Part shown: in pieces, positions 251 to 32,900 of the stretch
How positions within the stretch are numbered: position 1 is the stretch's first letter
Layout: each line of letters starts with the position of its first letter
The notes under the pieces: model-generated
Seen by the model: only the letters and a program-made list of their open reading frames with translations
Told to the model about the DNA's origin: nothing
The model's database searches: none
DNA from: Bacteroidales bacterium
GTDB taxonomy: Bacteria > Bacteroidota > Bacteroidia > Bacteroidales > Marinilabiliaceae
DNA: 36,146 nt
Assembly: GCA_024401395.1 (NCBI GenBank)
Contig: JAKSLD010000028.1
Location: forward strand, 1-36,146
Direction of reading: 5' to 3'
Made by a program: the position numbers and the translations under genes

Positions 251-326
251 CAACGTCATAAAACGATAATAGTCAATATTTAAACTGACACATATAACAA
301 GACATAAACATTAAACACTTAAAGAC

Positions 327-1805
327 ATGAAAATGAAAAAGACATTGGCAACAGTAGCTATCACAGCAGGCTGCATCGCATTGGGTGCTTATCTGCACGC
401 TCGCTATACAGAATATACAGAGGCCCCAGTAGTAAAGATTTCTCCAGAGGATACCGCTACGGTATTCAGTGGTCAGGCCACAGCTTCTCGCGTGGCTATG
501 TCTTATGCTCCAACTGATTTTACCGAGGCAGCAGCTAAGAGCGTAGAGAGCGTGGTTCACGTTAAGGTTCTGCAGGAGTCTCGCCAGAGTGCTTACGGCT
601 CTTCTGATCCTTTCCTCCAGTTCTTCTTCGGACCTCGTGTTCAGCCTCAGCAGCCTCAGGGTCCTCAACTGACAGGTTCTGGTTCTGGCGTCATCATCAG
701 TAATGATGGTTATATCGTAACTAATAATCACCTTATCGAAAACGCTGATAAGATTGAAATAGTCCTCAACGACCGCCGCGTATTTGAGGGTACACTCATC
801 GGTACTGATAAGACAACAGATATCGCTCTCGTGAAAATCGAAGCGTCGGACCTTAAGCCTCTCGCTTTCGGTAACTCTGATGCTCTTAAGGTGGGCGAGT
901 GGGTTCTCGCTGTGGGTAACCCTTTTAATCTTACATCTACCGTTACTGCTGGTATCGTTAGCGCTAAGTCTCGTAAAATGGGTATCAATCAAAGCCAGAT
1001 GAGTGTCGAGTCGTTCATCCAGACTGATGCCGCTGTCAATCCTGGTAACTCGGGTGGCGCTCTCGTCAATACCCGTGGCGAATTGGTGGGTATCAATACT
1101 GCTATCGCTTCTAATACGGGTTCGTATACTGGCTATTCTTTTGCCGTACCTACCTCTATTGTCCAGAAGGTAGCTGCCGACCTCAAGGAGTATGGTGAGG
1201 TTCAACGTGCTCTTCTCGGTGTCTCTATCGCTGAGATTAATAGCGAACTCCAGAAGAAATATAACCTCGAAAAGCCAGAGGGTGTCCTCGTAATGGATGT
1301 TAACGAAGGTAGCGCAGCTCGTGACGCTGGTATTCAGTCCGAGGATATAATAATTGCTGTAGATGGCAGGCCAACTATGACTGTAGCTCAGCTTCAGGAA
1401 CAGATTGCTCAGCATCGTCCAGGTGATACAGTGAAACTTACATACATTCGTGATGGTAAGGAAATGACGACTATGTGTACTCTCCGTAACGTACGTGGTA
1501 CAACTGAGGTTGTCAAGGTAGCCGATGCTACAGACGTGCTCGGTGGCTCTCTTCGCCCAATTTCTGACGATGAGAAGCAGAATATGCACCTCCGATATGG
1601 TATCAAGGTAGAGAAGGTAGGCAATGGTAAACTCAAGGAGAGTGGCGTTCGCGACGGTTTCATCATCCTCAAGGCTAACCGTACACCTCTTACCACCGTC
1701 AAGGAGTTGGAGCAGATTACAGCTACCGCATCCGAGGGTCTCTTTATCTCAGGTATCTACCCTAATGGTAAGGTAGCATATTACGCAATTAACCTCCAGG
1801 ACTAA
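327..1805 (+). CDS. htrA: HtrA/Deg-family periplasmic serine protease with two PDZ domains
   Basis: Trypsin-like serine protease and chaperone of the HtrA/DegP family, which degrades or holds misfolded envelope proteins in the periplasm. The 492-aa product starts with a hydrophobic signal sequence or anchor (about residues 5-23). The catalytic triad is readable: His135 (VTNNH), Asp165 (TTDIAL) and Ser242 (PGNSGG), with the GSGSGVIIS strand just before the histidine motif. Two PDZ-like regions follow, about 290-385 (LLGVSI to TCTLRN) and 410-490 (GIKVEKVG to the end); the second is shorter and more divergent. The length suits a two-PDZ member. The gene appears monocistronic, with its own promoter and a hairpin terminator downstream. 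The cysteine at residue 16 lacks a convincing lipobox, so a lipoprotein is unlikely. Confidence 0.95.
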   Translation: MKMKKTLATVAITAGCIALGAYLHARYTEYTEAPVVKISPEDTATVFSGQATASRVAMSYAPTDFTEAAAKSVESVVHVKVLQESRQSAYGSSDPFLQFFFGPRVQPQQPQGPQLTGSGSGVIISNDGYIVTNNHLIENADKIEIVLNDRRVFEGTLIGTDKTTDIALVKIEASDLKPLAFGNSDALKVGEWVLAVGNPFNLTSTVTAGIVSAKSRKMGINQSQMSVESFIQTDAAVNPGNSGGALVNTRGELVGINTAIASNTGSYTGYSFAVPTSIVQKVAADLKEYGEVQRALLGVSIAEINSELQKKYNLEKPEGVLVMDVNEGSAARDAGIQSEDIIIAVDGRPTMTVAQLQEQIAQHRPGDTVKLTYIRDGKEMTTMCTLRNVRGTTEVVKVADATDVLGGSLRPISDDEKQNMHLRYGIKVEKVGNGKLKESGVRDGFIILKANRTPLTTVKELEQITATASEGLFISGIYPNGKVAYYAINLQD

Positions 1806-7781: not shown

Positions 7782-9119
7782 ATGTTTTCTGAGCGCCGAT
7801 TAGAAATTGCTTTTGTTGTATGCCTTGTCCTGTACTCAATGGGACACCTGTGGGATTTCTTTTATGCCATATGTTATACCGCTATGGCCATATCTTTTGT
7901 CGGTTTGGTATATAACATCATTCGCCTTTATTCATATAAGGGCTCTGTAACAGCAACCCGTAAAGTCGACGCTAAATTGAGTAATGGTATGGATAATCTG
8001 GTTGAGCTGTCCATTACCAGTACATATCCTTTTAAGGTTGAGATTGTTGTCCTGGACGAAGCTCCTGATATCCTTCAGTTGCGTGATAACGGACTTAAGG
8101 CTACACTGGAACCAGGCTCTACAGTCACATTGTCCTATAATGTCCATCCGGTGAAGCGTGGACTGTATACTTTCCATAACACTAATGTCTTCATTAATGT
8201 GTGGCCATATTTTATCAGTCGCTGCTTCATTTCCAAGAATGAGGAGCAAGTGAAGGTCTATCCGGCTTTCAATTTTCTCCGTAATATGGAACTTCTCTCA
8301 TTCCGTAATCGCGAGATGACACTTGGTGCACATACTCAGAGTCGTATCGGACAGAGTAAGGAATTTGAGAATATCCGCGAGTATGTTCTTGGCGATGACT
8401 ACCGTATGATCAACTGGAAGGCTTCTGCCCGCCGTCACTTACTGATGGTTAACCAATACGCTCAGGAGAAACGTCAGGATATCTATGCCTTTGTAGATAA
8501 GGGGCGCGGAATGCAGCATACATTCGAAAAGCTAAGCCTGCTGGATTATTCTATCAATTCCACACTGCAACTTAGCTTTATATGTATTCAACAGCAGGAT
8601 AATATGGGTCTCCTCACTTTTGAGCGTAACATCAATACATTCTTTCCTGCCACTGGAGGTATGTCTCAGATTCATAAGTTCCATGATGCTCTGTATGACG
8701 AAAAAACCGAATTTGCTGAGAGCGACTATTCGGCGCTCTTCGCCTTTTGTCAGCGTAATATCAAGAAGCGAAGCCTCTTGATTATCTATACCCAGTTTGA
8801 TTCTGTCAACTCACTCAATCGTCAGATGCCTTATATCAAGGAGTTGGCGAAGCTCCATCTTGTCTTGATAGTGTTCTTTATTGATTCTGATATCCAACAG
8901 CTTTGCTACCAATCACCATCAGAGATGTCAACTATCGATAAGCCTATGACAGATACTGAGGTGTATGCTACACAGATGGTGGCTCAACGTATGTCTTTTG
9001 AGCAGCATCAGATAGTCCGAGAACTCAAAAACCATGGTATCTTCTCTCTTCTGACTAGCCCAGAATCACTGACTGTTAACGTCATAAATCAGTATCTCGC
9101 ACTCAAGGAGCGTATATAA
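7782..9119 (+). CDS. DUF58 family protein, MoxR partner
   Basis: A 445-aa protein with two N-terminal hydrophobic helices (about residues 8-24 and 28-48) and the DUF58 signature ENIREYVLGDDYRMINWKASAR (196-217). The family often carries a VWA-like fold after the signature; here the first strand reads DIYAFVDKGRGM, so the MIDAS DxSxS motif is degenerate. DUF58 proteins are coupled to MoxR ATPases by strong gene-order conservation. It is the last gene of the operon. Its final 78 coding bases lie inside a 96-bp segment found again at 14880-14975, the far end of the restriction-modification island. Confidence 0.9.
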   Translation: MFSERRLEIAFVVCLVLYSMGHLWDFFYAICYTAMAISFVGLVYNIIRLYSYKGSVTATRKVDAKLSNGMDNLVELSITSTYPFKVEIVVLDEAPDILQLRDNGLKATLEPGSTVTLSYNVHPVKRGLYTFHNTNVFINVWPYFISRCFISKNEEQVKVYPAFNFLRNMELLSFRNREMTLGAHTQSRIGQSKEFENIREYVLGDDYRMINWKASARRHLLMVNQYAQEKRQDIYAFVDKGRGMQHTFEKLSLLDYSINSTLQLSFICIQQQDNMGLLTFERNINTFFPATGGMSQIHKFHDALYDEKTEFAESDYSALFAFCQRNIKKRSLLIIYTQFDSVNSLNRQMPYIKELAKLHLVLIVFFIDSDIQQLCYQSPSEMSTIDKPMTDTEVYATQMVAQRMSFEQHQIVRELKNHGIFSLLTSPESLTVNVINQYLALKERI

Positions 9120-9137
9120 AAACGTAAAAGAACGGAC
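9042..9137 (+). repeat. Direct repeat, left copy: 3' end of the DUF58 gene
   Basis: These 96 bases match 14880-14975 with four substitutions and no indels. They cover the last 25 codons of DUF58, its TAA, and 18 bases of downstream DNA. The other copy encodes the same residues except Ser to Asn. The two copies bracket the restriction-modification island. Confidence 0.95.
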
Positions 9138-9189
9138 TTTTTTCCTCTGGAGACGTTTTTTGTAGATTTTGGTGGCACACGGATTCAGG

Positions 9190-9226
9190 GGATAAAGAAA
9201 GCCCCGACGCGGTTGGCGACGGGGCT
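9190..9226 (-). terminator. Terminator of the restriction-modification operon
   Basis: Hairpin with AGCCCCG (9200-9206) pairing with CGGGGCT (9220-9226), the stem extended by near-complementary ACGC/GCGA. On the minus strand it is followed by TTTCTTTA. It lies about 25 bases after the stop of the last methyltransferase. Confidence 0.75.
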
Positions 9227-9252
9227 GTGATGAGGAAATGAATGCACAATGT

Positions 9253-10629
9253 TTAAATGTTTAGTACTCTGTAACTCCATCCACGAGACAAATTATTTAT
9301 ATACAGAGGCTGAATAAGTTGCTTGAAAAGCGATAACGACAATACAAGCCTTTTGTCATGAGGAGAGATTGAGTTTGAAATATCGTGTGGTAGTTCGAGA
9401 CGAGATTTAATACAGACAGAGGTAATGTTATATATTGTTGTTATTTTGCCGTTTATTATAGGTGCAAAATACTTCATGTTATTGACGATATCGGCGAAGT
9501 CTGAACGAGAAGAATGAGAGCGACCGAAATAGTATTCTACATCTCTGCTATTTTGCGAGAACTCGATAAAAGTATTGTTGTTCTTGTTTGGAAAAACTGT
9601 TACAGCCAGAACAGTAATATCATTACGATTGTCTTTTGGGGAGGCTTCAAATGCGTCGACTATTTGACAAGCAATAGCTTGAGCAAAAAGAGGAGGTACA
9701 GCATTGCCTACCATTTTGTAACCATCGCGAATATCATTGTATATGAATTTGAAATCGTCAGGAAATGACTGAATACGAGCACATTCACGAATACTCAAAC
9801 GTCGATAAACAGCATTTGGAGCAAATGCCCTTTTATTTGGTGAAACAAAAAGCATCTTTGGGGCACTTGGGTGGAGAGGCTCGTTTTTAGCTTGTGCTTG
9901 TATGGTAAACGAAGGTTCGTCCCAACTGCGAACGCGATTACGAGACATGAATTTGACGTCATAGGGTGCGTCAAAAGTATCGTGATTAGCATAAGGACAT
10001 ACACTCGTGTCAGCAGTTGCCGAAATTGATGAATTTACTATTTTAGGTTGAAATTGTGCAAGGTCGCCAATAGACTGGCGTAGTGTGACATGCTTAGAAA
10101 TAGATGGGGATGGAAATTCAAAAGATGTAGTTATATCGTTTCTGATACCTACAACAATAACTCTTTTTCTATTTTGGGGCACGCCAAAGTCTGCAGCATC
10201 GAGCAACTTGTATTTGATTTTATAACCGGGTGATTCTAATTGTGATATGAAAGATTTAAATGTGTTGATGTGTTGAGGGGATAGAATGCCAGGTACATTT
10301 TCAATGACAAAAAATTTGGGCTGCTTCTCTTTGACTATGCGGATATAGTCCAAGAATAATTTGCCACGTTCATCTTCAAGCCCTAAACTTTTGCCACCTT
10401 CACTCCATGCTTGGCAAGGCGGACCACCGATTATTCCATCAGCATCGGGTATTTCACTTGCAGATAACTTGCGTATATCTGCATTGGAAAACATGGTAGC
10501 TGGGTGGTTAAGACGATAAGTTGCTTCGATTGCTGTGTCATATTCATTTGCCCAAATCACATTTACCCCGGCTCTTTCAAAGCCAAGGTCTAGACCGCCA
10601 CAACCAGCAAACAGCGAAACGACGTTCAT
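9253..10629 (-). CDS. Second DNA cytosine-C5 methyltransferase with a 130-residue C-terminal extension
   Basis: A 458-aa DNA (cytosine-5) methyltransferase. Motifs are in order: FAGCGG (I, 7-12), GGPPCQ with catalytic Cys72 (IV), ENV 110-112 (VI), QNRKR 152-156 (VIII), a target-recognition region about 180-270, RECARIQ from 281 (IX) and GNAVPP 308-313 (X). The enzyme should end near residue 325, but about 130 further residues follow, rich in beta-type sequence (ITTIYNITSVCI, RLVLSLSLFKQL), which I do not recognise. The target-recognition region shares [11 protein letters not shown] with the neighbouring HaeIII-like enzyme but then reads FTIQAQAKNEPLHPSAP instead of [17 protein letters not shown], so its specificity may differ. 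Start and the preceding stop overlap by one base (TAATG), showing coupling. Confidence 0.93.
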   Translation of the reverse strand: MNVVSLFAGCGGLDLGFERAGVNVIWANEYDTAIEATYRLNHPATMFSNADIRKLSASEIPDADGIIGGPPCQAWSEGGKSLGLEDERGKLFLDYIRIVKEKQPKFFVIENVPGILSPQHINTFKSFISQLESPGYKIKYKLLDAADFGVPQNRKRVIVVGIRNDITTSFEFPSPSISKHVTLRQSIGDLAQFQPKIVNSSISATADTSVCPYANHDTFDAPYDVKFMSRNRVRSWDEPSFTIQAQAKNEPLHPSAPKMLFVSPNKRAFAPNAVYRRLSIRECARIQSFPDDFKFIYNDIRDGYKMVGNAVPPLFAQAIACQIVDAFEASPKDNRNDITVLAVTVFPNKNNNTFIEFSQNSRDVEYYFGRSHSSRSDFADIVNNMKYFAPIINGKITTIYNITSVCIKSRLELPHDISNSISPHDKRLVLSLSLFKQLIQPLYINNLSRGWSYRVLNI

Positions 10630-11630
10630 TATTCAAATCCTTTTTCTTTCAACACTTCTTTGATTCTTAATGCTACATGGTATGCGAGATTAACAGGCAC
10701 AGCGTTGCCTATCATCTTGTAGCCATAGTTGACATCATCATAGATGAAATTGAAATTGTCAGGGAAGCTTTGAACTCGTGCAACTTCACGGACAGTCATT
10801 CGACGGTACAAATGTTCTTGTCCGGGAACAAATATTTGTTTATTTGCTTCGATTTTCACCATTTTAGGAGCTTGTGGATGCAATTGACATTGACGACCGC
10901 TAGCTTGAACCGTAAAACCAGCTTCGTCCCAACTTCTGACTCGATTTCGAGATAAGAATATTGGAGAAAATGACCCAATAAAATATTCATGATTGGGAAC
11001 TTTACACTTGTTGCCATTCGTCTTGTTCTTGTCAAGCGCTGGAATGGCAGAGTCTTGCAGATCCCAAATGGCTTCTCTTAACGTAGGTTTGTGTTCAAGA
11101 GGAGTAGGATACTGAAAATCTTTAACTTCGAGGTCTTTTCTAAACCCGATGTAAAAGATTCGATCTCTATCTTCAGGAACATCAAAATCGTTGGCATTTA
11201 ACATTTTGAGGTTTACATCGTAACCTGCTTCGTCAAACAACTTTAAAAATCCTTTTACAGCCTCTGAATGACGATTCGCCAACATGCCAGATACATTTTC
11301 AGCAACAAAGAATAGTGGTTGCTTATCTTTGAGAATACGTATATATTCGTAGAATAGTTGGCCACGAGCATCTTCAATGCCACGGAGAGAACCGCCCTCG
11401 CTCCAGGATTGACATGGCGGACCTCCAATAATACCTTGGATATCGTTTGGAAACTCGTCTGAAGAAATGTTTCTTATATCTTTGTCGCTGAGTTCTACGT
11501 TTGGAAAATTTGCTCTAAATGTTGGACAAATTTTCTTATCGAACTCGTTAGCCATTACAGTAGTAAATCCTGCCTTATGGAAACCAAGGTCGAGACCACC
11601 GGCACCACTAAACAAACTAATCAATCTCAT
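10629..11630 (-). CDS. HaeIII-like DNA cytosine-C5 methyltransferase (predicted GGCC)
   Basis: A 333-aa methyltransferase, nearly the length of M.HaeIII. From memory of that enzyme, similarity is high over the whole length: [16 protein letters not shown] (motif I), [16 protein letters not shown] with catalytic Cys73, AENVSGM (motif VI), and especially the recognition region [33 protein letters not shown] and [17 protein letters not shown]. This supports methylation within GGCC. The ATG at 11630 is preferred over a longer frame to 11690 because motif I begins immediately after it and the extra residues look non-coding. It overlaps the upstream endonuclease gene by 14 bp. Confidence 0.95.
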
Positions 11631-12591
11631 TTTCTTGAAACAAATACTGAGTGAAAAGTACTGGTGGGTTGCCAAGAAGCTTAACATCAAACTTCAAAGA
11701 TTGTTCAACCTTAGTTGATGCATTATGAATTCTAAAAGATATTTCCCAGCCACCGTCTAGAATCATATTAAGGGTATTGTCGGAATCTGCTTTCATCTTG
11801 AACTCCACTATGCGAGTAGGTAAGTTTAATTTAGGCGTTTGAAAACGAGGTTTAACACCTTCATAACTCTTGTTCAGCTCTCCTTCTAAATTGAACGCCT
11901 TCACAACTACGAGGTTGTGGCTATCATCTTTTATAATCTTATAGAAAGCATACTTGCCTAACAAGTAGCGAATTAGTTTCTGTGGTATGTCAGCGTTATT
12001 GTTGTTGATGAGCATCAACTCCTTTCTAAATGCTTCAAGTAGAGGTATGTAAACTCTAGTTGCCTTTTCTTCACCAAGGTCGTTCCAAGTTTTGTTTTTA
12101 CATTCTCCCAAATATGAAAATATAGGTTTGATATCATCCCAATAGTTCTTAGAACAAGGAACGTCGAACCAAGATTTGCCGAAGTCAAGGACTTTGCTAA
12201 GACGAGAGTGCTTAACTGCATCGTTGTTATTCTTTGCGGAGAAACCAATTTCCCAACTTGGCTGCATACGTTGAAAAACGACATCGCGTACGTCGCCAAA
12301 CTCTCCAGCGCTATCATGATTAATATAGATTTGAAGACATTCATTGGGTTTGCCTATCGCAGTCAATCCTGGTTCAATTCGAACCATAGTATCGATGGTT
12401 AATGCTGCGCAGTAGTCAAAGCGACGTCTGTCAGCAAAAGTAGATGCATCGTAATATCTTTTAGCATCATCATAAGCAGCGTTTTGAACAAGAACGAGAT
12501 TTACACCATTCTCTTTCAGATAGCTACTATATTGCACGGCAAGAGCGTATTCAAAAGCTTTGCCATTCTTCACTTGATCACCTTGTGCCAT
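11617..12591 (-). CDS. HaeIII-family type II restriction endonuclease
   Basis: A 324-aa protein that I place in the HaeIII endonuclease family (PF09556), which cuts GG/CC. Support is the N-terminal [16 protein letters not shown], the hallmark [20 protein letters not shown] (about 112-131) and [23 protein letters not shown]. Asp100, Glu114 and Lys120 could form a PD-(D/E)xK-like site; this is inference. It is first in a three-gene operon, followed by the matching GGCC methyltransferase. Having the nuclease promoter-proximal means the methyltransferases depend on readthrough or an internal promoter. The gene looks intact, so the system may be active. Confidence 0.88.
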
Positions 12592-12625
12592 ATAACTATA
12601 AAAAATAGTCTAAACGTTTTAGGTG

Positions 12626-12660
12626 CAAAGGTAGGAAAAATGATTGGTAAAAATGTCAAA
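12626..12660 (-). promoter_or_regulatory. Candidate promoter of the restriction-modification operon
   Basis: On the minus strand TACCTTTG (12633 to 12626) matches TAnnTTTG exactly. TTTG occurs 23 bases upstream (12660 to 12657), slightly longer than the usual spacing. The predicted start is about 28 bases before the endonuclease ATG. Confidence 0.5.
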
Positions 12661-12813
12661 TGACTGTATAAATTAATGAGACAAAGATAGTTACGTTTGT
12701 GTAGTTCTTGAATTTCAACAAGATAGATTTGCTATTATGCAATTAAATATAATTGGCTATAGATAATAAATTGATTCATAAACACCTGGATGCCCTCAAA
12801 ATTTCATGCCGTT

Positions 12814-13002
12814 TTATTGTTCCGGTAGTTCGATGCAGAAGTGGTCTACGATGGCTTTGACGATGTTGGGAGGGAGAAGGCGCATCGAGGGACGGTAGCC
12901 GAGGGGCTGGAGTTTGTGGTGGATGGAGCGAAGCCAGCGGTTGAAGGTGGATGGGGAGACTTCGGCAAAGGCGGCGAGCTGTTGTTTGGTGTAGCTTTTC
13001 AT
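12814..13002 (-). CDS. Small DUF4248-like helix-turn-helix protein
   Basis: A 62-aa protein reading KSYTKQQLAAFAEVSPSTFNRWLRSIHHKL, then LGYRPSMRLLPPNIVKAIVDHF. It resembles DUF4248-type small proteins common in Bacteroides and often found beside other accessory genes. The first half has helix-turn-helix character. Function is unknown. It shares strand with the frameshifted gene upstream and is separated from it by a TATTAC-type repeat region. Confidence 0.65.
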   Translation of the reverse strand: MKSYTKQQLAAFAEVSPSTFNRWLRSIHHKLQPLGYRPSMRLLPPNIVKAIVDHFCIELPEQ

Positions 13003-13066
13003 GGTGTTATCCTATTACTATGTTATTACTGTCCTATTACTATCCTATTACTTTGGTATTACATTG
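13003..13066. repeat. Imperfect tandem repeat of a CCTATTACT-type unit
   Basis: TCCTATTACTAT recurs about four times with variants (TCCTATTACTATG, TGTTATTACTG, TCCTATTACTAT, CCTATTACTTTGG). It fills the gap between the small HTH gene and the frameshifted gene. Role unknown; it could hold a promoter or a protein-binding array. Confidence 0.6.
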
Positions 13067-13714
13067 TTATATGCCGCCACTGCTCTTGTTCATGAGCTTG
13101 TAGCCTGCGTATGCGACAATGCCTACGCCTGCCGCGATGAGGACGTACTTGCCGTATTTCTTGATTTTTTCGCCCATTGTGGAAAAGTTGTTTGATGTTG
13201 GTTGAGAGATGATAGTCGTGCTGGTGACATCGGACTGTGCCTGCTGCGTGTCGGCCACAGAGCTGGAGCCAGGCTCGGCAAGATACTGTGACGAGACGAA
13301 GCCCTCGGTGGCGTTGTAGCGAACGGCTGTCCATCCGCTAGTTGAGGCGCAGTTGAGGACATACACTGATGGGATTGAAGCGAATGAGGAATTTGACAAC
13401 CTTCTTGGCAACTTTGGCAATCTTCTTGCCGATCTTCTTGGTGATCTTGGTTACTGCTTTGGCGGCATTCTTAACGCCCTTGTACAGTCTGGGCAGCCTT
13501 CTTGATGCCTTTGCCAACCTTTTTGATAGCCTTCTTCAGGAAGCCGAAGAGAGCCGAAGAGTTTGGACTGAGAGCTGGGTTGTTTTGCGCCTGAGTGAGG
13601 GTAATGTTGCGTAGTTTGGGATTGTCCCAATAGTCGAGGACTGAGCCTAGTCCGCTTGCCATTGCACGTGCTTCTCGTTCAGTCGGGAAGAAGAGCGTCG
13701 TAGTGATAGATGTG
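13067..13714 (-). pseudogene. Frameshifted cationic / SH3-like / transmembrane protein gene, 5' end lost
   Basis: Read on the minus strand, one protein is spread over three frames. Frame one gives TTTLFFPTEREARAMASGLG... to KKAIKKVGKGIKKAAQTVQG. Removing one base from CCC at 13477-13479 continues into VKNAAKAVTKITKKIGKKIAKVAKK. Removing one base from GGG at 13374-13376 continues into PSVYVLNCASTSGWTAVRYNATEGFVSSQYL, an SH3-like segment. It ends with a membrane helix (KYVLIAAGVGIVAYAGYKLM). The repaired product has more than 200 residues: a lysine-rich amphipathic region, an SH3-like domain and a C-terminal anchor. The open frame extends past the ATG at 13662 to about 13714, where a stop appears next to a truncated unrelated gene, so the 5' end also looks lost. 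I do not recognise the family. Confidence 0.65.
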
Positions 13715-14875
13715 CCTCAAGCGGCGTATAATTTACGTCCTATATACATCAACAATAATATGCAAAATGGTTCGTATAAACGAAACCATGAAGGAGACTA
13801 CAAATGCAATGAGCAGGAACTGAAAATGATGCTCAGAGATGCCAATGACGAAGGGAATGATGGCATTTTGCTGGAAAACTATGGCATGGAAGACATTGAT
13901 GGAGAAACGTTGAGGAAATATAGGCAGTTGTTCAAGACAGACCATCCTGAACATGCATGGAATGATCTCGAAGACAAGGAGTTTTTGAGAAATATGGGAG
14001 GATATGGAAAGAACAGAAATACAGGAACAGAGGCGTTGACATTGGCAGGATTGCTGATGTTTGGTAAAGGACTGTCGGTGAGAGAACGTTTTAGCAATGT
14101 TCGTATGGACTACGTTGACTATACAAATATTAGCGGTGAGCAGAGATATAGCGACAGACTGACATACGATGGCAGTTGGGAGAATAATCTGTTTAACTTC
14201 ATAAGAATGGTGCTTCCGAAACTGACAAGAGACTTACCTCGCCCTTTTAAAATGGAGGGTATGCAAAGGATTGATGACACTCCATTGCACAAGGCGGTAA
14301 GAGAGGCGGTAACGAATGCTGTGATACATTCGGACTACATGTTGAATGGAGTTTTGCGTATAGAGAAACATGATGAGGGTTTTGTTTTAAAGAATCCAGG
14401 ACTGTTGAAGTTGCCAGTAAGAGCAATTTATGAGGGCGGAGAATCGAAGTCTCGCAATCCACGTATGCAAGATATGTTGAGAATGATAGGTTACGGAGAA
14501 AACTTGGGGTCGGGATTTCCGTCTATACTGAAGGCATGGCATGACACTCGACTTGCTGAGCCGATGCTTGTGGAGCAGACTGAGTTGATGCAAGTAGAAC
14601 TCACAATGCAGATTGTATTAGGAAACAACGATTTCCTAAAAGATTTCCTAAAAGAACTCACTGAAAGACAGATAGATATATTAAAGATAATAAATACCGA
14701 TTTCCTAATAACCACACAGGGAATAGCCGACAAGACAGGAACAACAGACAGGACTGTTAGAAATGACATAAAGACATTGAAGGAGAAAGGATTGCTAGAT
14801 AGAGAAGGAGGACGCAAAGATGGGAAATGGATAGTGACAGGAAATGGTGTGGCATTATTGGAGGTTATTAGATAG
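13703..14875 (+). CDS. 5'-truncated RecG-like ATP-binding protein (AlbA_2 domain missing)
   Basis: A 390-aa frame opening with GTG at 13703. IDVPQAAYNLRPIYINNN matches the interior of proteins with an AlbA_2 domain followed by a RecG-type ATPase-like domain (HATPase_c_4). The ATP-lid features are present: EAVTNAVIHSDY (201-212), GGESKSRNP (245-253) and GYGENLGSGFPS (263-274). A C-terminal winged helix follows (TERQIDILKIINTDFLITTQGIADKTGTTDRTVRNDIKTLKEKGLL). The expected N-terminal AlbA_2 domain of more than 100 residues is absent. The frame stays open upstream into the opposite-strand pseudogene, so a deletion or recombination junction probably lies at about 13690-13703. Translation could instead start at an ATG near 13760. 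The stop codon lies 5 bp before the second DUF58-end repeat. Probably non-functional or altered. Confidence 0.75.
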   Translation: MIDVPQAAYNLRPIYINNNMQNGSYKRNHEGDYKCNEQELKMMLRDANDEGNDGILLENYGMEDIDGETLRKYRQLFKTDHPEHAWNDLEDKEFLRNMGGYGKNRNTGTEALTLAGLLMFGKGLSVRERFSNVRMDYVDYTNISGEQRYSDRLTYDGSWENNLFNFIRMVLPKLTRDLPRPFKMEGMQRIDDTPLHKAVREAVTNAVIHSDYMLNGVLRIEKHDEGFVLKNPGLLKLPVRAIYEGGESKSRNPRMQDMLRMIGYGENLGSGFPSILKAWHDTRLAEPMLVEQTELMQVELTMQIVLGNNDFLKDFLKELTERQIDILKIINTDFLITTQGIADKTGTTDRTVRNDIKTLKEKGLLDREGGRKDGKWIVTGNGVALLEVIR

Positions 14876-14879
14876 TAAA

Positions 14880-14975
14880 TTCTCTCTTCTGACTAACCCA
14901 GAATCACTGACTGTCAACGTCATAAATCAGTATCTCGCACTCAAGGAGCGTATATAATAACGCAAAAGAACGGAC
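14880..14975 (+). repeat. Direct repeat, right copy: displaced 3' end of a DUF58 gene
   Basis: 96 bases matching 9042-9137 with four substitutions. In frame it encodes FSLLTNPESLTVNVINQYLA and then LKERI plus stop. It is a DUF58 gene tail without its gene and marks the right edge of the island. Confidence 0.95.
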
Positions 14976-14999
14976 CAAGGGTGAACCAGGATTGAAGGG

Positions 15000-15039
15000 A
15001 TAGAAAAGAAAGGCAGCGCCAGTTTCCTGATGCTGCCTT
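15000..15039 (-). terminator. Terminator of the Fib_succ_major-like gene
   Basis: AAGGCAGC (15010-15017) pairs perfectly with GCTGCCTT (15032-15039). On the minus strand it is followed by a T-rich tract (TTTCTTTTCT). It lies about 45 bases after the stop of the gene ending at 15085. Confidence 0.75.
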
Positions 15040-15084
15040 GTGAGCGTTATAGCGCTATGTGAGACGTCGTTGTCGTCTCTATGT

Positions 15085-15921
15085 TTACAACTTGCGACCT
15101 GCTATGTCGTAGCGTTCGCCATTGCGGATGATGACAACCTTGCCGTTTTCGATGGTTTTGGTTACCTTGCCAGCATTGTCGGTGTTGACAGACTCGATGG
15201 CTGTTGGGGTTGTGTCTGGAACATCATAAACAGGACGAACAGGGAACCCGCGATAACGGCTATCGTCGATGTTCGGGTCGACGTTGTCCGAATCGAAGTC
15301 GAGGTAGTACGCGCCGTAGGCGCTGCCTGGGTAAGGAGTAGACGACCAGTAGAGGCCGCTCGAACCCTTGTCGAGGAGGTACTCCCCGCGACGATAGCCA
15401 GCAGCAGGAAGGAAGATAGAGTTGCCTGTATAGCCTGCCTTCTTTGATGTTACCTTATAGCCAGCTACACCATTGAATTCGGTATTGTCTTCATCATACC
15501 ATACCCATGCACAGTTGTCCGTATTTGCTAGCTCTGCAAACTCTGTCTGTGTAGGCATACGGTAGCCCGCACCTAAAGCTGCAGTTGCAGCATCGTAAGC
15601 CGTTCCACCGATACCTTTTGAATAATTCGCACCACCATAAACATACTCCTTGAGAGGGTCTTTATCCGTACCTGCATCATCCCAAGATGTCATTGTACCG
15701 TCAAGGTCTGACAGATAAGTCTCCCATGTGTAGTTTGCCTTTGGCGATGTCTCGCCCCACGCCAGATACCATCCTGCGGCTGTTGAAGAAGTTGCACCAA
15801 GGTTACATGTTGCCCACTTGACGGACAAGCCGAGGTCGACATACTCGCCACTCAGAGGCTCTTCTGCCCATGCACCTACAGCGAACAAGGCAGAAACGAA
15901 TAAAGAAATTAATTTTCTCAT
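15085..15921 (-). CDS. Secreted Fib_succ_major/DUF1566-like protein
   Basis: A 278-aa secreted protein with a signal peptide (MRKLISLFVSALFAVGAWA). The body carries YVDLGLSVKWATCNLGA, WYLAWGETSPKANYTWETY, GYRMPTQTEFAEL, SIFLPAAGYRRGEYLLDKGSSGLYWSS and GFPVRPVYDV, the pattern of Fibrobacter-succinogenes-major-like domains frequent in Bacteroidales. The C-terminus (ENGKVVIIRNGERYDIAGRKL) resembles the conserved tail of many exported Prevotella proteins, possibly a sorting signal; that is inference. It likely acts at the cell surface or outside; the ligand is unknown. It is monocistronic, with a terminator beyond its stop, and lies immediately outside the island. Confidence 0.85.
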   Translation of the reverse strand: MRKLISLFVSALFAVGAWAEEPLSGEYVDLGLSVKWATCNLGATSSTAAGWYLAWGETSPKANYTWETYLSDLDGTMTSWDDAGTDKDPLKEYVYGGANYSKGIGGTAYDAATAALGAGYRMPTQTEFAELANTDNCAWVWYDEDNTEFNGVAGYKVTSKKAGYTGNSIFLPAAGYRRGEYLLDKGSSGLYWSSTPYPGSAYGAYYLDFDSDNVDPNIDDSRYRGFPVRPVYDVPDTTPTAIESVNTDNAGKVTKTIENGKVVIIRNGERYDIAGRKL

Positions 15922-16853: not shown

Positions 16854-16898
16854 GAGAACCTGGCACCGAATGAAATACTTGTTTTATTAAGGCATTCC

Positions 16899-16983
16899 CT
16901 TATTGTACCTTTGTAATGCATTTATAATCAATACATTAAGAGGCGTTTTTCAAATAAGCATGTTTGAATGTACTTATTTTTAC
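16899..16983 (+). repeat. 86-bp direct repeat, copy A, with a 28-bp dyad
   Basis: Similar to 18586-18671 at about 86% identity. It ends in a dyad (16952-16979) of AAATAAGCA, loop, TACTTATTT, then a T-run. This copy also carries TACCTTTG at 16906-16913, an exact -7 consensus on the plus strand. It abuts the stop codon of the DUF4143 ATPase. Confidence 0.85.
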
Positions 16984-18440
16984 AATCCGTACGATACCTT
17001 TGTTTGCTTGAGTGTATTTTCACCTATGATATAGGCATAACAAGCCGAAGGAATGAATATCAGCGTTGCCTTGTCCAACTCTTTTTTGCCTTCAGCATTA
17101 ATACTCGTAACTATAGCATCTTTCAGGTTGTTTTTCTCCATGAAATATAGCAAAGATTCCAGTTCCCCTGGTCTGTCATAATATCTGTCAGTCCATTTTA
17201 TTTCAACAGCCCAATTAGGTTTCTGCTTGAGTATACTGAGTCCGACAATATCAACCTCTCCCTGTTTTTTTGCATTTATTCTCCAGTTGGCATAATGAAT
17301 GTCTGTGCTCTGGCGTGGGAACCACTGTGCATAGATAGCAGTTTCCACCATATTGCCGATAGTCTCATCTGTCTCTGATATAGGTTGGAATAGAGCGCAT
17401 CTCAAAGAAGGATTAGTCAGGTATATCTTGAACTGAGTTTCCCTAACATACTTCTTTGCTGTATCATCTGTTCTCCTGACAACCTTGATCAGAAATGCAG
17501 CTTCAAGGTAATTGATATACTTTTTAAGAGTTTCCTTCTTAACCCCTGATTCCTTCGAAAGCGTTTCATACGAGAACTGATCACCAGAATGATACGCAAT
17601 CATCGTAAACAGAGAATTAAGTTCCTGAACGTCAGTAATGCCATATAAACTTGGCAGATCGCGCAAGAGAACTTTATCAATGATATCATTCCTTATAAAT
17701 TGTTGTGGATTTTCTCGGACAGATTGCGAGAAAACGACTTCCGGATATCCTCCATAATTTATATAATCAATAAAGAGTTTATTGAGGGTTGTCATATCAA
17801 ACGACCTGTATATACTGGATGTGTAATTAGATGTTTCCAATTCATACGGAATCATGATTTGAGAGTACTTGCGAAGATGAACGTATTCATAGAATGTGAG
17901 AGGAGGGAGATTAAAATCGGTAAATCTGCCTGCACCACTTTCATTACTTCTCTTCTTTAACTCTGCAGCAGCAGAACCAGAGGCAACGAACTTAACATTT
18001 CTATAGGTATCGACCAGTGATTTCAACTCCACCTCCCATTCTTTCAAATACTGTATCTCGTCATAGAATACATACATCTGATCTTTTGTAGGAGATTTGC
18101 CCAGTGCGTTGCAAGCTAAGTTATACAACTGCTCCAATAATATCTTGTTGTATATTGGGGTTTCTACAGACACATAGATAATATTCTGTGCTGGTACGCC
18201 GTCATTTATCAGTCTCTGGATTGTGTGGTACATCATTACCGTTTTGCCCACGCGTCTTGGTCCCATCAGAATTGTTGCTCTACGGGTTACAGTATCTTTG
18301 ACCAATGGATAAAAGATATCAAGGTATAATCGAGGCGACATATTTCTGAAAAATTCAGAGATATCACCATCTGTCCACCATGGATTATCAACCTTAAGCC
18401 TACCTACTATTTGTTTCTCTAAAAGTTCTGTATATTCCAT
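16980..18440 (-). CDS. AAA_14/DUF4143 ATPase
   Basis: An ATP-binding protein of the AAA_14 plus DUF4143 type (490 aa if counted from an upstream ATG at 18452, 486 from 18440). Numbered from the longer form, Walker A is GPRRVGKT (64-71) and Walker B is MYVFYDEIQ (Asp131, Glu132). SGSAAAELKKRSNESGAGR is the family arginine-finger region. The middle has LPPLTFYEYVHLR and an HTH-like stretch (SKESGVKKETLKKYINYLEAAFLI). The C-terminus carries GEVDIVGL and WAVEIKWTDR, a PD-(D/E)xK-like D/ExK arrangement common in DUF4143. The biological role is unclear; some relatives are thought to act in defence or mobile-element contexts. The ATG at 18440 is preferred because a -7 box at 18462-18469 would leave almost no leader for 18452. 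It is flanked by direct repeats. Confidence 0.88.
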   Translation of the reverse strand: MEYTELLEKQIVGRLKVDNPWWTDGDISEFFRNMSPRLYLDIFYPLVKDTVTRRATILMGPRRVGKTVMMYHTIQRLINDGVPAQNIIYVSVETPIYNKILLEQLYNLACNALGKSPTKDQMYVFYDEIQYLKEWEVELKSLVDTYRNVKFVASGSAAAELKKRSNESGAGRFTDFNLPPLTFYEYVHLRKYSQIMIPYELETSNYTSSIYRSFDMTTLNKLFIDYINYGGYPEVVFSQSVRENPQQFIRNDIIDKVLLRDLPSLYGITDVQELNSLFTMIAYHSGDQFSYETLSKESGVKKETLKKYINYLEAAFLIKVVRRTDDTAKKYVRETQFKIYLTNPSLRCALFQPISETDETIGNMVETAIYAQWFPRQSTDIHYANWRINAKKQGEVDIVGLSILKQKPNWAVEIKWTDRYYDRPGELESLLYFMEKNNLKDAIVTSINAEGKKELDKATLIFIPSACYAYIIGENTLKQTKVSYGL

Positions 18441-18461
18441 GTACAAAGTCATTAATTAACA

Positions 18462-18469: not shown

Positions 18470-18482
18470 ACGAATTCGTTTC

Positions 18483-18510
18483 AAATAAGCATATTTGAAT
18501 GTGCTTATTT
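18483..18510. repeat. Third copy of the 28-bp dyad, over the ATPase promoter
   Basis: AAATAAGCA and TGCTTATTT as perfect 9-bp arms around a 10-base loop. It differs from the dyad at 18639-18666 by one loop base, but the rest of the 86-bp repeat is absent here. Confidence 0.85.
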
Positions 18511-18585
18511 TTCATCTTTTCGACGAGAATGTGCAAATAACTAGAAATATTTAAGAGATTTGCCTGGCTTTTCTAGCTAGTTTCT

Positions 18586-18671
18586 CTTATTGTACCGCCG
18601 TAATGCGTTTGAAATCAATGTATTAATAGACGTTTTTCAAATAAGCATGTTTGAATGTGCTTATTTTTTAC
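18586..18671 (+). repeat. 86-bp direct repeat, copy B, with a 28-bp dyad
   Basis: Same orientation as 16899-16983 and about 86% identical. Its dyad (18639-18666) is perfect and followed by a T-run. The position of the -7 box of copy A reads TACCGCCG here, so that promoter would be lost. It lies between the ATPase and the downstream phosphatase gene. Confidence 0.85.
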
Positions 18672-28780: not shown

Positions 28781-28790
28781 TATCGTACGC

Positions 28791-28880
28791 TCGTCATCCC
28801 AAAACGTATTTTCGTCACTCCAAACCTTTCACTCGTTAAATGACCAAAGATGATTTTACTGTTTGTCATAATATTGCACT
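28791..28880 (+). promoter_or_regulatory. Promoter module, copy 1, before the DUF3592 gene
   Basis: This stretch recurs at 29821-29911. Conserved parts are two CGTCA-type boxes 21 bp apart, CTCGTTAAATGACC, and AATATTGCACTC. The last contains TAATATTG (28869-28876), one mismatch from the -7 consensus, 26 bases before the ATG. Spacing between the first box and the AATATTGCAC box is 74 bases in both copies. Confidence 0.75.
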
Positions 28881-28901
28881 CAATAATTAAATCTTATTAA
28901 T

Positions 28902-29579
28902 ATGAAAAAGATACTGAATATAGTTGCCGGCCTATTCCTCGCAGTAGGCGTCATTTTGCTCATCGCTACTTATGTCGTGCATTCAAATTATGAGGATTTT
29001 AAGTCGCATGCCGACCTTGTTGATGCCGAGATAGTGGACATGACTGCCTCGCAAGATAATGTCAGAGTACTCATTGCCTACGAATACGATGGCAAATCCT
29101 ATGGCCCAGCCATGCTCAACGGTTACTCTTCTTCTATGTATGTGGGCGGTACCGTCGAAATATATGTCGACCGCGAAAACCCTAGCGACTTCTCTTGGGG
29201 CAGTGGTATAGCCCAGACCATCCTTCTCATCCTTGGATTGGTGTTCGCCGGCATCGGTGGCGGTATCTTCCTCGTGAGAGCTATTTCTGGCTCTGGCGCT
29301 AAACGCCTCGTCAAAGAGGGCGACAAGCTCGTGGGCAAAGTGGAGAACGTTTCACGTAATACAGCTGTGGAGATTAATGGCGAAAACCCATGGGTAGTCG
29401 TATGTACCTGGACTAAGTCTAATGGCGAGATATATAGGTTCAAGAGCAAGAACATCTATACCGACCCTATGGATACATTCCGCCCGGGAGATGACATTAT
29501 AATATATGTCGACCGCAACAATATGAAGAAGTATTATGTGGATGTCGACCAGAAAATGAGTATGATTCATGATATGTAA
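28902..29579 (+). CDS. DUF3592-like membrane protein
   Basis: A 225-aa protein with an N-terminal membrane helix (about 5-25), an extracytoplasmic domain of the DUF3592 type (LVDAEIVDMTASQDNVRVLIAYEYDGKSYGPAM, VGGTVEIYVDRENPSDF), a second helix (about 104-127), then a repeat of the same domain pattern (GKVENVSRNTAVEING, WVVVCTW, FRPGDDIIIYVDRNNMKKYYVD). Two DUF3592-like units around one helix suggest internal duplication. Function is unknown. It shares a promoter module with the giant repeat protein downstream and has a strong terminator. Confidence 0.8.
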   Translation: MKKILNIVAGLFLAVGVILLIATYVVHSNYEDFKSHADLVDAEIVDMTASQDNVRVLIAYEYDGKSYGPAMLNGYSSSMYVGGTVEIYVDRENPSDFSWGSGIAQTILLILGLVFAGIGGGIFLVRAISGSGAKRLVKEGDKLVGKVENVSRNTAVEINGENPWVVVCTWTKSNGEIYRFKSKNIYTDPMDTFRPGDDIIIYVDRNNMKKYYVDVDQKMSMIHDM

Positions 29580-29678: not shown

Positions 29679-29820
29679 GTCTTCATCATTTGAAAAAATT
29701 GCGATGAACAAGGGTGTTCTATAGGTCTAGCATAGGTGCTCCATAGTTCCAGAGTGCGACTGACTATGTAATCTGTCCTACCATTCAAATCTGCTCTCTC
29801 CAATCTCAAAAAAATTACCG

Positions 29821-29911
29821 TTCATCATCCCAAAACGTATTTTCGTCATCCCAAACCGGTCGCTCGTTAAATGACCGAAGAACGTATATGCTCTTATTTT
29901 AATATTGCACT
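29821..29911 (+). promoter_or_regulatory. Promoter module, copy 2, before the giant repeat-protein gene
   Basis: Second copy of the 28791-28880 module, with identical 74-base spacing between its first and last conserved boxes. CATCATCCCAAA and CGTCATCCCAAA lie 21 bp apart, and the -7-like TAATATTG is at 29900-29907, 58 bases before the ATG. Confidence 0.75.
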
Positions 29912-29965
29912 CTGATAATTGTGCAACACGCATTACATGTGTAATAATTTTTTAACAACTATCAT

Positions 29966-32900
29966 ATGACAATGAAACGAATAACATCATTTATCCGTCT
30001 GTTAGTCTGCCTCATCTTCATGGCGGCAACTACACAGCACGCGCTGGCTGCAATAGACATCACAGCCACGCAACCAGCCAATGGTACGGGTACCGAAGCC
30101 GACCCTTACCAAATCTCTACTCCTGGCGAACTCTACTGGTTTGCCAAGCAGGTTAATGGTGGACAATCCACTATGGTTTATGATGGACAATCCACTATCT
30201 GCGCTAAGTTGACTGCCGACATTGTGGTAAACGAGAATGTGCTGAAAGCAGGAACTTTCACTTTAAATGGCACACCTGCCAATGTGTGGACTCCTATTGG
30301 AAATACTACCAATCAGTTTAAAGGCACTTTCGATGGCAATGGCCACACCATTAGCGGTTTGTATTTTAACAATACAGCTAATGCAACTGCAAACAAATAT
30401 ATCGGCCTTATAGGCTATGCCACTGGTGCCACCATCAAAAATGTTGTGGTTAAGGACTCGTATCTTAGAGGATATGGTTATGTTGCTGGCATTTGTGGAA
30501 ATGCAACAGGCTCAACCAAAATATCAAACTGTGGTTTCGAAGGCTATTCGTGGAATTACGGCATTACCGATAATGAATATTCTGCAACTGTTGAAAACTG
30601 CTATAGTGTGTCAAACATGCGTTTGGCATATAGAGCAACCACCAATTGCTACCACGACAATACCAAATACAAAGATTTAACCTCAAATAGTATTGGCAAG
30701 CCAAGCACTGTCTTTGCAAGTGGTGAGGTGGCTTGGCTGTTGAATGGTGGTAGTAGTGATGGTCCATGGGGACAAAAAGTAGGAACTGATGCTACTCCTG
30801 TTTTTGGCGGTGACAAAGTATATGCTACTGCCATCTGCCCACACGCAAACAGCTATAGCAATATCGAGAGTGTATATACTCCAATTGCCGATGGAGATGA
30901 GCATTACGATGCTGATGGCTTTTGCAAAGTATGTGGCGCAGGACATCCAGCAACTCTTGTTGGTGATTATTATGAAATTGACAACGCAGGTAACCTCTAT
31001 TGGTTCGCCGCACAGGTTAATGCAGGACAAGCTACAATCAACGCTAAATTGACAGCCGACATTGTGGTGAACGAGAATGTGCTGCAACCAGGAACATTTG
31101 ACTTAAATGGCACCCCTGAAAAAGTATGGACTCCTATTGGAAATTATAACAATGACTTTAAAGGAACATTTGATGGCAATGGACACACCATCAGTGGCTT
31201 GTATAACAATGCAGCATACTCATATATCGGCCTTATAGGCTATGCCACTGGTGCCACCATCAAAAATGTTGTGGTTAAGGACTCGTATCTTAGAGGAGGT
31301 AGTTATGTTGCTGGCATTTGTGGAAATGCAACAGGCTCAACCACAATAACCAATTGTGGTTTTGAAGGATATGTGAATGCTTATGCGCAATACTTTTTTG
31401 GCATTGCCTATAATTATTCTGCAACTGTTGAAAATTGCTATAGCGTGTCAAACGCACCTTTGTCAAGTAAGGCAACCACCAACTGCTACCACGACAATAC
31501 CAAATACACAGGTTCAACCAATTACAGCGAAGGCAAGCCAAGCACGGCTTTTGCAAGTGGCGAGGTGGCTTGGCTGTTAAATGGAGGTAGTAGCGATGGA
31601 CCATGGGGACAAAAAGTAGGAACCGATGCATTGCCAGTTCTTGGTGGTGATAAAGTGTATAGAATTTCCAGCTGTCCACATAAAGCCAGCTACACCAACA
31701 CTGAGAGTGTATATACTCCAATTGCCGATGGAGATGAGCATTACGATGCTGATGGTTTTTGCAAAGTATGTGGTCAAGACCAACCGGCAACTCTTGTTGG
31801 TGATTATTATGAAATTGACAATGTAGGTAAATTGTATTGGTTTGCAGAACAGGTTAACGCTGGTCAAACCACAATCAACGCTAAATTGACTACCGACATT
31901 GTGGTGAACGAAAATGTGCTGAAACCCGGCACTCTCACATTGAACGGCACCCCTGAAAGAGTATGGACTCCTATTGGAAATAAAACCAATCAGTTTAAAG
32001 GAATATTCGATGGCAATAACCATACCATCAGCGGTTTGTATTTCAACAATACAGCCTACGTAGATGCAAACAAGTATATCGCTCTTATAGGCTATGGCAA
32101 TGGAGCTACCATTAAGAATGTGGTTGTAAAAGACTCGTACCTTAACGGAAACAATTATATTGCCGGTATTTGCGGATATGCAACTGGCTCAACCACAATA
32201 ACCAACTGCGGATATGAGGGGTATGTATATGGCAGTAATACTTACGGCATTGCCTACAACTATTCTGCTACAGTTGAGAATTGCTATAGCGTGTCGGATC
32301 AGCCTTTGTCAAATAAGGCAACCACCAACTGCTACCACGATAATAGCAAATACACAAGTTCAACCACATATAGCACTGGCAAGCCAAGCTTAGCCTTTGC
32401 AAGTGGCGAGGTGGCTTTGTTGTTAGGTGATGCTTGGGGTCAGAAAATTGGTACTGATGTATTGCCTATACCTGGCAGCGACAAGGTGTATAAGAACACC
32501 TACTCAGGCGAATGCCCTGGTGAAGGTTATAGCAATGTGGACGAACATGGTGTAGTTACCGAACGTAACCATAATTGCAATGAAGAAGGTGTATGTATTC
32601 AATGCGGTTTTTATATTATTTCAACAGCCGACCAGTTGTATGCATTTGCAGCAAAAGTTAATAGCGGGAAATCCACAATCAGCGCCAAGTTGACTGCCGA
32701 CATTGTGGTTAACGAGAATGTGCTGAAAGCAGGAACTTTTGACTTGAATGGCACACCTGCCAACGTGTGGACTCCAATTGGAACATCTAGCAAAAACTTT
32801 AAAGGCACATTTGATGGCAATGGCCACACCATTAGCGGTTTGTATTTCAACAATACAGCATACTCAGATGAAAACATCTATATCGCTCTTATAGGCTATG

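Follow-up and report, generated by a model that had tools for sequence, protein, structure and literature searches.

Integrative elements that insert at gene 3' ends leave a whole gene end at one junction and an orphan end at the other. Another route, insertion with long target duplication, was reportedly described by Nobusato et al. in 2000 and by Furuta et al. in 2010 from comparison of Helicobacter pylori genomes. Restriction-modification (R-M) systems are said to insert with target duplications of about 100 bp (PMC3874152, PMC1643837). The locus described here lies in a 36,146-nt stretch of a gut-type Bacteroidales genome (GCA_024401395.1, contig JAKSLD010000028.1), hereafter the window. 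It resembles the gene-3'-end elements in having a whole gene end at one junction and an orphan end at the other, and it differs from them in that no integrase was found, that only one gene is involved and that the repeat is longer. With insertion with long target duplication, the locus shares a recombinase-less gene flanked by a direct repeat of about 100 bp that is specific to the locus, and an R-M system within the same interval; however, the bracketed unit here is a gene for an AlbA_2 protein, and the R-M system comes second. In the reports of such insertions an R-M system is usually the inserted unit, a feature that is not strictly defining and that this locus does not show. Because the insert is something other than the R-M system and 15 genus and 71 family genomes yielded no empty site with a single tail and without the AlbA_2 gene, membership in this class is unproven. 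We consider it probable that an older insertion of one gene left the 96-bp duplication as its scar, that the tract was exchanged between lineages, and that an R-M system arrived later and broke the gene.

The left repeat copy (9042..9137, + strand) is hosted by an intact DUF58 gene (7782..9119, +; PF01882, E 5.9e-19), which stands behind a MoxR-type AAA gene; the copy comprises the last 78 bp of the DUF58 gene and the 18 bp that follow. The right, orphan copy (14880..14975, +) has no gene of its own and lies 4 bp after the AlbA_2 stop codon. A repeat search matched 9034-9137 to 14872-14975 at 93% over 104 nt, with a clean core of 96 nt that contains four substitutions, at copy positions 17, 36, 79, and 84. 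Searching the genome itself (47 contigs, 3,303,652 bases, completeness 97.93) recovered the same two places. The duplicated gene end and the four substitutions recorded in an earlier note are thereby confirmed; the remaining matches were eight, each of 14-26 bases (E 0.3 to 3.9). The presence of the repeat at just two places rules out a general, dispersed repeat, a case which that note had raised.

The region between the copies is accessory, and its genes are largely those that the earlier note had listed. A stretch common with the relative G011 (9138..9190, +; 96% identity), which we read as the left edge of the old insert, ends where the blastn match with G011 stops, at 9190. Two C5 cytosine methyltransferase genes follow on the minus strand, one encoding 458 aa (9253..10629; PF00145, residues 1-324, E 2.9e-92) and one encoding 353 aa (10629..11690; PF00145, E 1.3e-97); the longer protein extends about 130 aa past its Pfam match. 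The third gene (11617..12591, -) encodes a HaeIII-family restriction endonuclease (PF09556, RE_HaeIII, profile positions 1-298 of 298, E 1.1e-96; PADLOC REase_II). Next comes a relic (13072..13698, -) of a gene cluster in genome G001, which encodes an SH3 protein and another of 777 aa; the relic shows DNA identity of 79% to L071:5273-5563 and 70% to L071:6957-7318. Its two pieces adjoin in the window, and in G001 roughly 1.4 kb separates them. The IMG/VR contig IMGVR_UViG_3300021326_000214 contains two of the G001 cluster's proteins at 100% identity, and the relic is predicted to derive from a viral cluster. The interval closes with an AlbA_2/HATPase_c_4/HTH gene that lacks its first 100 or so codons (13691..14875, +; ORF 13703-14875). 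In agreement with the earlier note, which saw no integrase or recombinase, families of integrases, transposases, and recombinases gave no match among the 26 of 119 listed window ORFs scanned with Pfam (E <= 0.001); the other 93 are at most 187 aa long, apart from 273-1589 (minus), which lies antisense to one of the scanned genes.

The close relative compared here is G011, apparently a Bacteroidales metagenome-assembled genome from horse faeces and the only relative that carries the locus. It has both repeat copies, with starts 1,775 bp apart; the copies agree at every base over exactly 96 bp and diverge directly beyond them. The 1,679-bp insert between them holds the AlbA_2 gene with its own upstream region: a single intact gene encoding 495 aa, no R-M system, no recombinase, and no other ORF longer than 92 aa. 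The earlier note had taken the duplication to bracket the R-M cassette as a unit; a relative with both copies and one AlbA_2 gene in place of the R-M genes rules this out, and such a relative without the R-M genes is what the note itself had named as refuting. An R-M system is not necessarily delimited by a duplicated gene end beside it, a point that corrects an easy misreading. The note had also seen in the substitutions a sign of the tail's origin in a diverged relative. Since G011's two copies are identical, a foreign allele is unsupported, and the four substitutions, judged by this alignment, most likely postdate the duplication. Compared with the G011 copies, the window has three private changes in the left copy and one in the right. 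At copy position 27 the two window copies have A and the two G011 copies have G, a pattern that counts against the reading preferred here and implies that one copy converted the other or that events were more complex.

The G011 protein has the domain order AlbA_2 (PF04326, Schlafen), HATPase_c_4, HTH, the same as in Schlafen AlbA_2/RecG-C-terminal-like HATPase proteins, whereas most of the AlbA_2 domain is missing from the window copy: PF04326 is absent from ORF 13703-14875 in the Pfam scan. The window gene is 99% identical to residues 101-495 of the intact protein and thus retains the last 80% of the gene, its start and upstream region being replaced by the R-M genes and the relic. A search of the order found an AlbA_2 homologue (E <= 1e-80) in 12 of 393 genomes (own included). 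The other 11 genomes contain 13 homologue places, all of which align from query residues 1-16 onward, and this points to the long form as ancestral and the window form as derived. A diverged AlbA_2 fragment in genome G009 aligns with the window as far as 14878, 3 bp beyond the stop codon; there the two sequences part and no DUF58 tail follows in G009, which indicates that the tail belongs to the site and not to the gene; the repeat is target sequence, the DUF58 coding end. A 79-bp stretch from upstream of the AlbA_2 gene also precedes a DUF1016 gene in genome G010. DNA matching 8800-9140 was present in two of the 15 genus genomes (own included), both with the site filled; a longer query matched in 5 of 71 family genomes, and the tail matched in the same two only, with at most four candidates scored per genome.

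Identity to G011 steps up and down at the two ends of a tract (8793..15174, unstranded) that is interrupted at about 9191-13690. It is 77% in the DUF58 gene at 7782-8792 (235 differences in 1011 positions), 96.5% at 8793-9190 (14 in 398) and 99.4% at 13691-15174 (9 in 1484); over the whole DUF58 protein it is 86%. The right end falls inside the C-terminal part of a FISUMP/Lcl_C-like gene (15085..15921, -; PF07603 and TIGR02145, both under the curated cut-off), of which only the 3' end is common with the G011 gene at the same place, identity falling after about 15174. Of the earlier proposal that recombination carried the R-M cassette with its flank, exchange of the flank between lineages stands, but the R-M genes are not the bracketed unit. 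Divergence in the left part of the tract is 5-6 times that in the right part (Fisher p 3.6e-5, for a left boundary picked from the data), a gap that a single transfer does not predict and that counts against the history preferred here. As a whole, the earlier interpretation is partly supported.

We suggest the following order of events. The AlbA_2/HATPase_c_4/HTH gene, together with its own upstream region, would have entered the 3' end of the DUF58 gene and produced a direct repeat of exactly 96 bp, with DUF58 whole at the left and an orphan tail at the right; the duplication itself probably arose at the moment of insertion. The likeliest route would be recombinase-independent insertion with long target duplication, since the insert has no recombinase and its ends no notable inverted repeat: the longest inverted matches between the insert ends, and within the 96 bp, are 6 bases, no longer than in shuffled sequence. 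The ends may have been joined to staggered target points, or a circle may have recombined at the repeat. The stretch that begins inside DUF58 and reaches the end of the gene after it would then have been swapped between two species lineages by homologous recombination, an order of insertion and exchange that we infer. Finally, in the window lineage, the HaeIII-type R-M system and the relic of the predicted viral cluster would have replaced about 420-440 bp, taking in the AlbA_2 upstream region and the first 100 or so codons. Short shared sequence may have served at the right R-M-side junction, where window 13691-13698 reads as the G011 AlbA_2 gene and also, but for one mismatch, as the cluster gene of G001.

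A non-autonomous integrative element, acted on in trans by a site-specific recombinase with the DUF58 3' end as attachment site, is an unlikely alternative: insertion at a gene 3' end that keeps the gene whole and the exact repeat in G011 both speak for it, but an attachment core of 96 bp would be long, the insert has no recombinase, no notable inverted repeat lies inside the 96 bp, the repeat is found nowhere else in the window's own genome, and the G009 AlbA_2 fragment is not followed by it. Somewhat less credible is a tandem duplication that took in a larger DUF58-AlbA_2 segment, after which most of the second DUF58 copy was deleted. This would produce the same tail-gene-tail order without insertion at a repeat; however, AlbA_2 must already have adjoined DUF58, the deletion must end a few bases from the AlbA_2 stop codon, and self-comparison revealed neither a second AlbA_2 gene nor any additional DUF58 sequence. 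That the R-M system itself inserted with a long target duplication and was then lost in G011 is very improbable. Its genes do sit between the copies, and duplications of the order of 100 bp are ascribed to such systems in parts of the literature (PMC3874152, PMC1643837), but with its loss in G011 the upstream region and the first 100 codons of AlbA_2, which align with homologues, would need to have been rebuilt, and the R-M block stops short of the right copy, with the relic and 1.2 kb of AlbA_2 intervening. An assembly chimaera is the least plausible, for although both genomes are fragmented draft assemblies and the R-M junctions occur in one assembly only, the tails and the AlbA_2 gene are present in both assemblies, in versions that differ, and contamination of the window's own genome is given as 0.03, evidence that covers the repeat and AlbA_2 and, less so, the R-M junctions.

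With the older one-gene insertion as the preferred reading, the R-M system becomes a later arrival. Its full-length RE_HaeIII match and adjacent C5 methyltransferases are those of a HaeIII-type (type II) system, which it departs from in having two methyltransferase genes, 46% alike, one with an extra C-terminal part; GGCC specificity and activity are predicted. GGCC was seen 33 times against 77.6 expected in window positions 1-29600, and 16 times against 34.8 in the G011 stretch. It is about equally rare in G011, and GATC is under-represented too, so the count does not discriminate and GGCC avoidance is uninformative as a sign of long residence. The R-M stretch matched 22 plasmid records, all in the 60-80% identity band; the 10 listed of these 22 (64-67%) are annotated with methyltransferases, one also with a HaeIII-family endonuclease, or with none. 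Phages gave no match, and viral contigs contained no AlbA_2 relative, no HaeIII relative, and 0 exact matches to a 33-base tail pattern.

The two genomes form a clean pair, with an exact 96-bp duplication around one intact accessory gene in G011, useful for the study of gene movement without a recombinase. Literature searches for AlbA_2 or DUF4143 in a Bacteroid- context, and for Schlafen/AlbA ATP-binding proteins in phage defense, returned nothing on these subjects; we make no claim of absence from print. The 18 AlbA_2 loci checked (L019, L057, L060-L062, and L094-L106, with L057 a gene fragment only and L095 only 4.6 kb) do not support the idea that AlbA_2 genes always duplicate gene ends. 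Among the 17 besides L019, a bracketing repeat of at least 100 bp was present only in L100, a 117-bp repeat of different sequence whose copies lie roughly 1.3 kb ahead of the gene and 0.2 kb after it. The brackets in L096 measure 50-53 bp and stand at a distance of some 2.3-3.1 kb, and the other listed bracketing matches are 23-41 bp. That single accessory genes of the genus (AlbA_2, DUF4143 ATPases, a DUF3592 gene) repeatedly insert without a recombinase of their own, with direct repeats of about 60-130 bp, is a speculative and rather doubtful generalization; if true, it would describe a general mode of one-gene mobility, of which the Helicobacter R-M cases are one instance. The window has three genes or gene groups so bracketed, whose repeats are full-length only at the bracket in this genome. 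There are hints that DUF4143 genes of the genus are unusually often bracketed by direct repeats, in 6 of 60 cases versus 2 of 125 control ORFs, with repeats mixed in kind, and, if this holds, the route would be wider than R-M genes.

The repeat at the end of the DUF58 gene is most likely the trace of an older one-gene insertion, accompanied by an exact 96-bp duplication of the gene end and, judging from the sequence, later broken by a HaeIII-type restriction-modification (R-M) system. As the earlier note had described, the clean repeat core is 96 bp long (positions 9042-9137 and 14880-14975), with four differences between the copies; the intact DUF58 gene (7782-9119) ends in the left copy, and the right copy is a tail without its gene. 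In the genome from which the window comes (47 contigs, 3.3 Mb), good matches to the repeat occur at these two places only; the remaining eight matches are of 14-26 bases each, with E values of 0.3 or worse. A DNA search of 15 genomes of the genus, including this one, with 8800-9140 found matches in two: this genome and a close relative, G011.

G011 likewise has two tail places, with starts 1,775 bp apart. The insert between them is 1,679 bp long and contains one long ORF of 495 aa, whose product has SLFN_AlbA_2 (PF04326, E 5.8e-14), HATPase_c_4, and HTH_11 domains; no R-M system lies between the G011 copies. The idea that the R-M system is the unit bracketed by the duplicated gene end was therefore not borne out. 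In the window, ORF 13703-14875 (Pfam domains HATPase_c_4 and HTH) shares 99% identity with residues 101-495 of the G011 protein. The G011 sequence missing from the window amounts to 421 bp by blastn ends (L019:9875-10295, in the G011 locus), or 436 bp when counted to the resumption of exact identity at window position 13691, and the window carries about 4.5 kb in its place.

Between the copies, Pfam profiles identified two C5 methyltransferases (9253-10629 and 10629-11690) and a full-length RE_HaeIII endonuclease (11617-12591), all on the minus strand. These are followed by a relic of a gene cluster found in another genome, G001 (13072-13698, by DNA match to G001 pieces). The methyltransferase at 9253-10629, the second one beside HaeIII, continues for about 130 aa after its Pfam match ends, and this part hits no further Pfam family. 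A methyltransferase region in G007 (L072:5453-6453), consisting of two overlapping ORFs, has 74% DNA identity to window 10639-11658; the endonuclease gene has no DNA match in the 8.9-kb G007 stretch around it.

Which allele came first follows from a search of 393 genomes of the order, with up to three candidates scored per genome: a homolog of the AlbA_2 protein was found at E <= 1e-80 in 12 of them, our own included. In the remaining 11 genomes, the alignments at the 13 places begin at query residues 1-16, so the long form is ancestral and the R-M system and relic of the window are the later change. The relic pieces lie side by side in the window and about 1.4 kb apart in the G001 cluster. 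A single IMG/VR contig encodes two proteins of this cluster with 100% identity, and the cluster is thus predicted to be viral; when five of its proteins were scanned, PHROGs hits were sparse and weak, and Pfam recognized an SH3 domain and a transglutaminase-like one. At the right junction, 13691-13698 agrees with the G011 AlbA_2 gene and also, with one mismatch, with the G001 cluster gene; possibly, it is an 8-bp sequence common to both partners.

The four substitutions had been taken to suggest a diverged tail donor. Such a donor is unnecessary: the G011 copies are identical across exactly those 96 bp and differ immediately outside, and relative to them, three changes are private to the left copy of the window and one to its right copy. 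Conversion inside G011 could also account for the likeness of its copies, and a fifth site, with A in both window copies and G in both G011 copies, is at least one indication that copies converted each other or that something else complicates the history. Most simply, the repeat would have started as an exact duplication and diverged later.

The anatomy of the G011 locus matches that of an "insertion with long target duplication," as outlined for R-M genes in comparisons of Helicobacter genomes (PMC3874152, PMC3031569, PMC1643837). The locus works like such an insertion; we do not claim that it is one, since such insertions are defined by comparison with an empty allele, a site with a single tail and no AlbA_2 gene. 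G009 carries a fragment of a related AlbA_2 gene whose match runs until 3 bp beyond the stop codon; the sequence then diverges and no DUF58 tail follows, so the tail belongs to the site. No inverted repeats exceeding those in shuffled sequence were detected at the G011 insert ends or within the 96 bp. At the left edge of the G011 insert, a 35-bp stretch recurs (89%) further along the same contig. Two unrelated genes share a 79-bp stretch (94%) in front of them, a DUF1016/YhcG nuclease gene in G010 (L058:5953-6031) and AlbA_2 in G011 (L019:9903-9981).

Identity to G011 changes in steps: 77% in DUF58 7782-8792 (235 differences in 1011), 96.5% in 8793-9190 (14 in 398), and 99.4% in 13691-15174 (9 in 1484), beyond which the genes soon diverge. 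These steps indicate an exchange of the segment between lineages. On the right, the exchanged segment ends within the C-terminal coding region of a FISUMP-like gene, and the stretch 14976-15215, which partially matches 29 places across 6 of the 15 genus genomes, could plausibly have served as a recombination point. Divergence is significantly higher in the left part than in the right (Fisher p 3.6e-5), so either there were multiple events or constraint was unequal.

The locus is ordinary in kind and fairly cleanly documented, and it raises a modest question, the frequency of such insertions. Of the 18 AlbA_2 loci examined, just two, L019 (in G011) and L100, are bracketed by a repeat of at least 100 bp. 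Two more single genes in the window are bracketed. A DUF3592 gene (28902-29579) is bracketed by a direct repeat of about 102 bp (28788-28888 and 29819-29920, 80%), present at full length in its own genome at the bracket only; elsewhere in the genus it has a single match in G011, a single match in G008, and no others. An 87-bp direct repeat (16895-16981 and 18582-18668, 86%) brackets a DUF4143 ATPase gene (16980-18452) and again occurs at full length in its own genome only at the bracket; apart from an adjacent partial third copy of 34 bp (18479-18512), this repeat has no match in the 15 genus genomes at E <= 0.001.

Given these two cases, DUF4143 genes (128 rows, 14 of 15 genomes) were tested under one fixed bracketing criterion, using the first 60 rows in table order, from which the window gene was left out, and, as controls, 20 stretches of the same contigs. 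Six of the 60 genes were bracketed (two of the 60 loci have short flanks) vs 2 of 125 controls (Fisher p 0.015), which comprise 73 neighboring ORFs from the tested loci (2 bracketed) and 52 ORFs from the control stretches (0 bracketed). Four of the 73 neighbors are themselves DUF4143 genes, including one of the two bracketed; when they are left out, 1 of 121 controls is bracketed. Two pairs of test loci overlap, and 12 of the 52 control-stretch ORFs overlap another one, so the items lack independence. The repeats are also of mixed kinds: dispersed, recurring elsewhere in the fetched loci (L148, L190, L198, and, outside the test, L074), local with a repetitive or palindromic character (L149, L173), or just local (L176). 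For both reasons, the excess is a hint and no finding. The dispersed repeat that brackets a DUF4143-type ATPase gene in G008 (L074:128-1658) also brackets, in opposite orientation, an AbiEii gene and its upstream ORF in G011 (L019:13136-14890).

No Rfam matches were found in the window. Positions 30175-34925 and 35135-36146 are ORF-poor and contain long repeats, with units about 820 bp apart and 72-84% alike, and the contig ends with 4.5 copies of a 225-bp unit.
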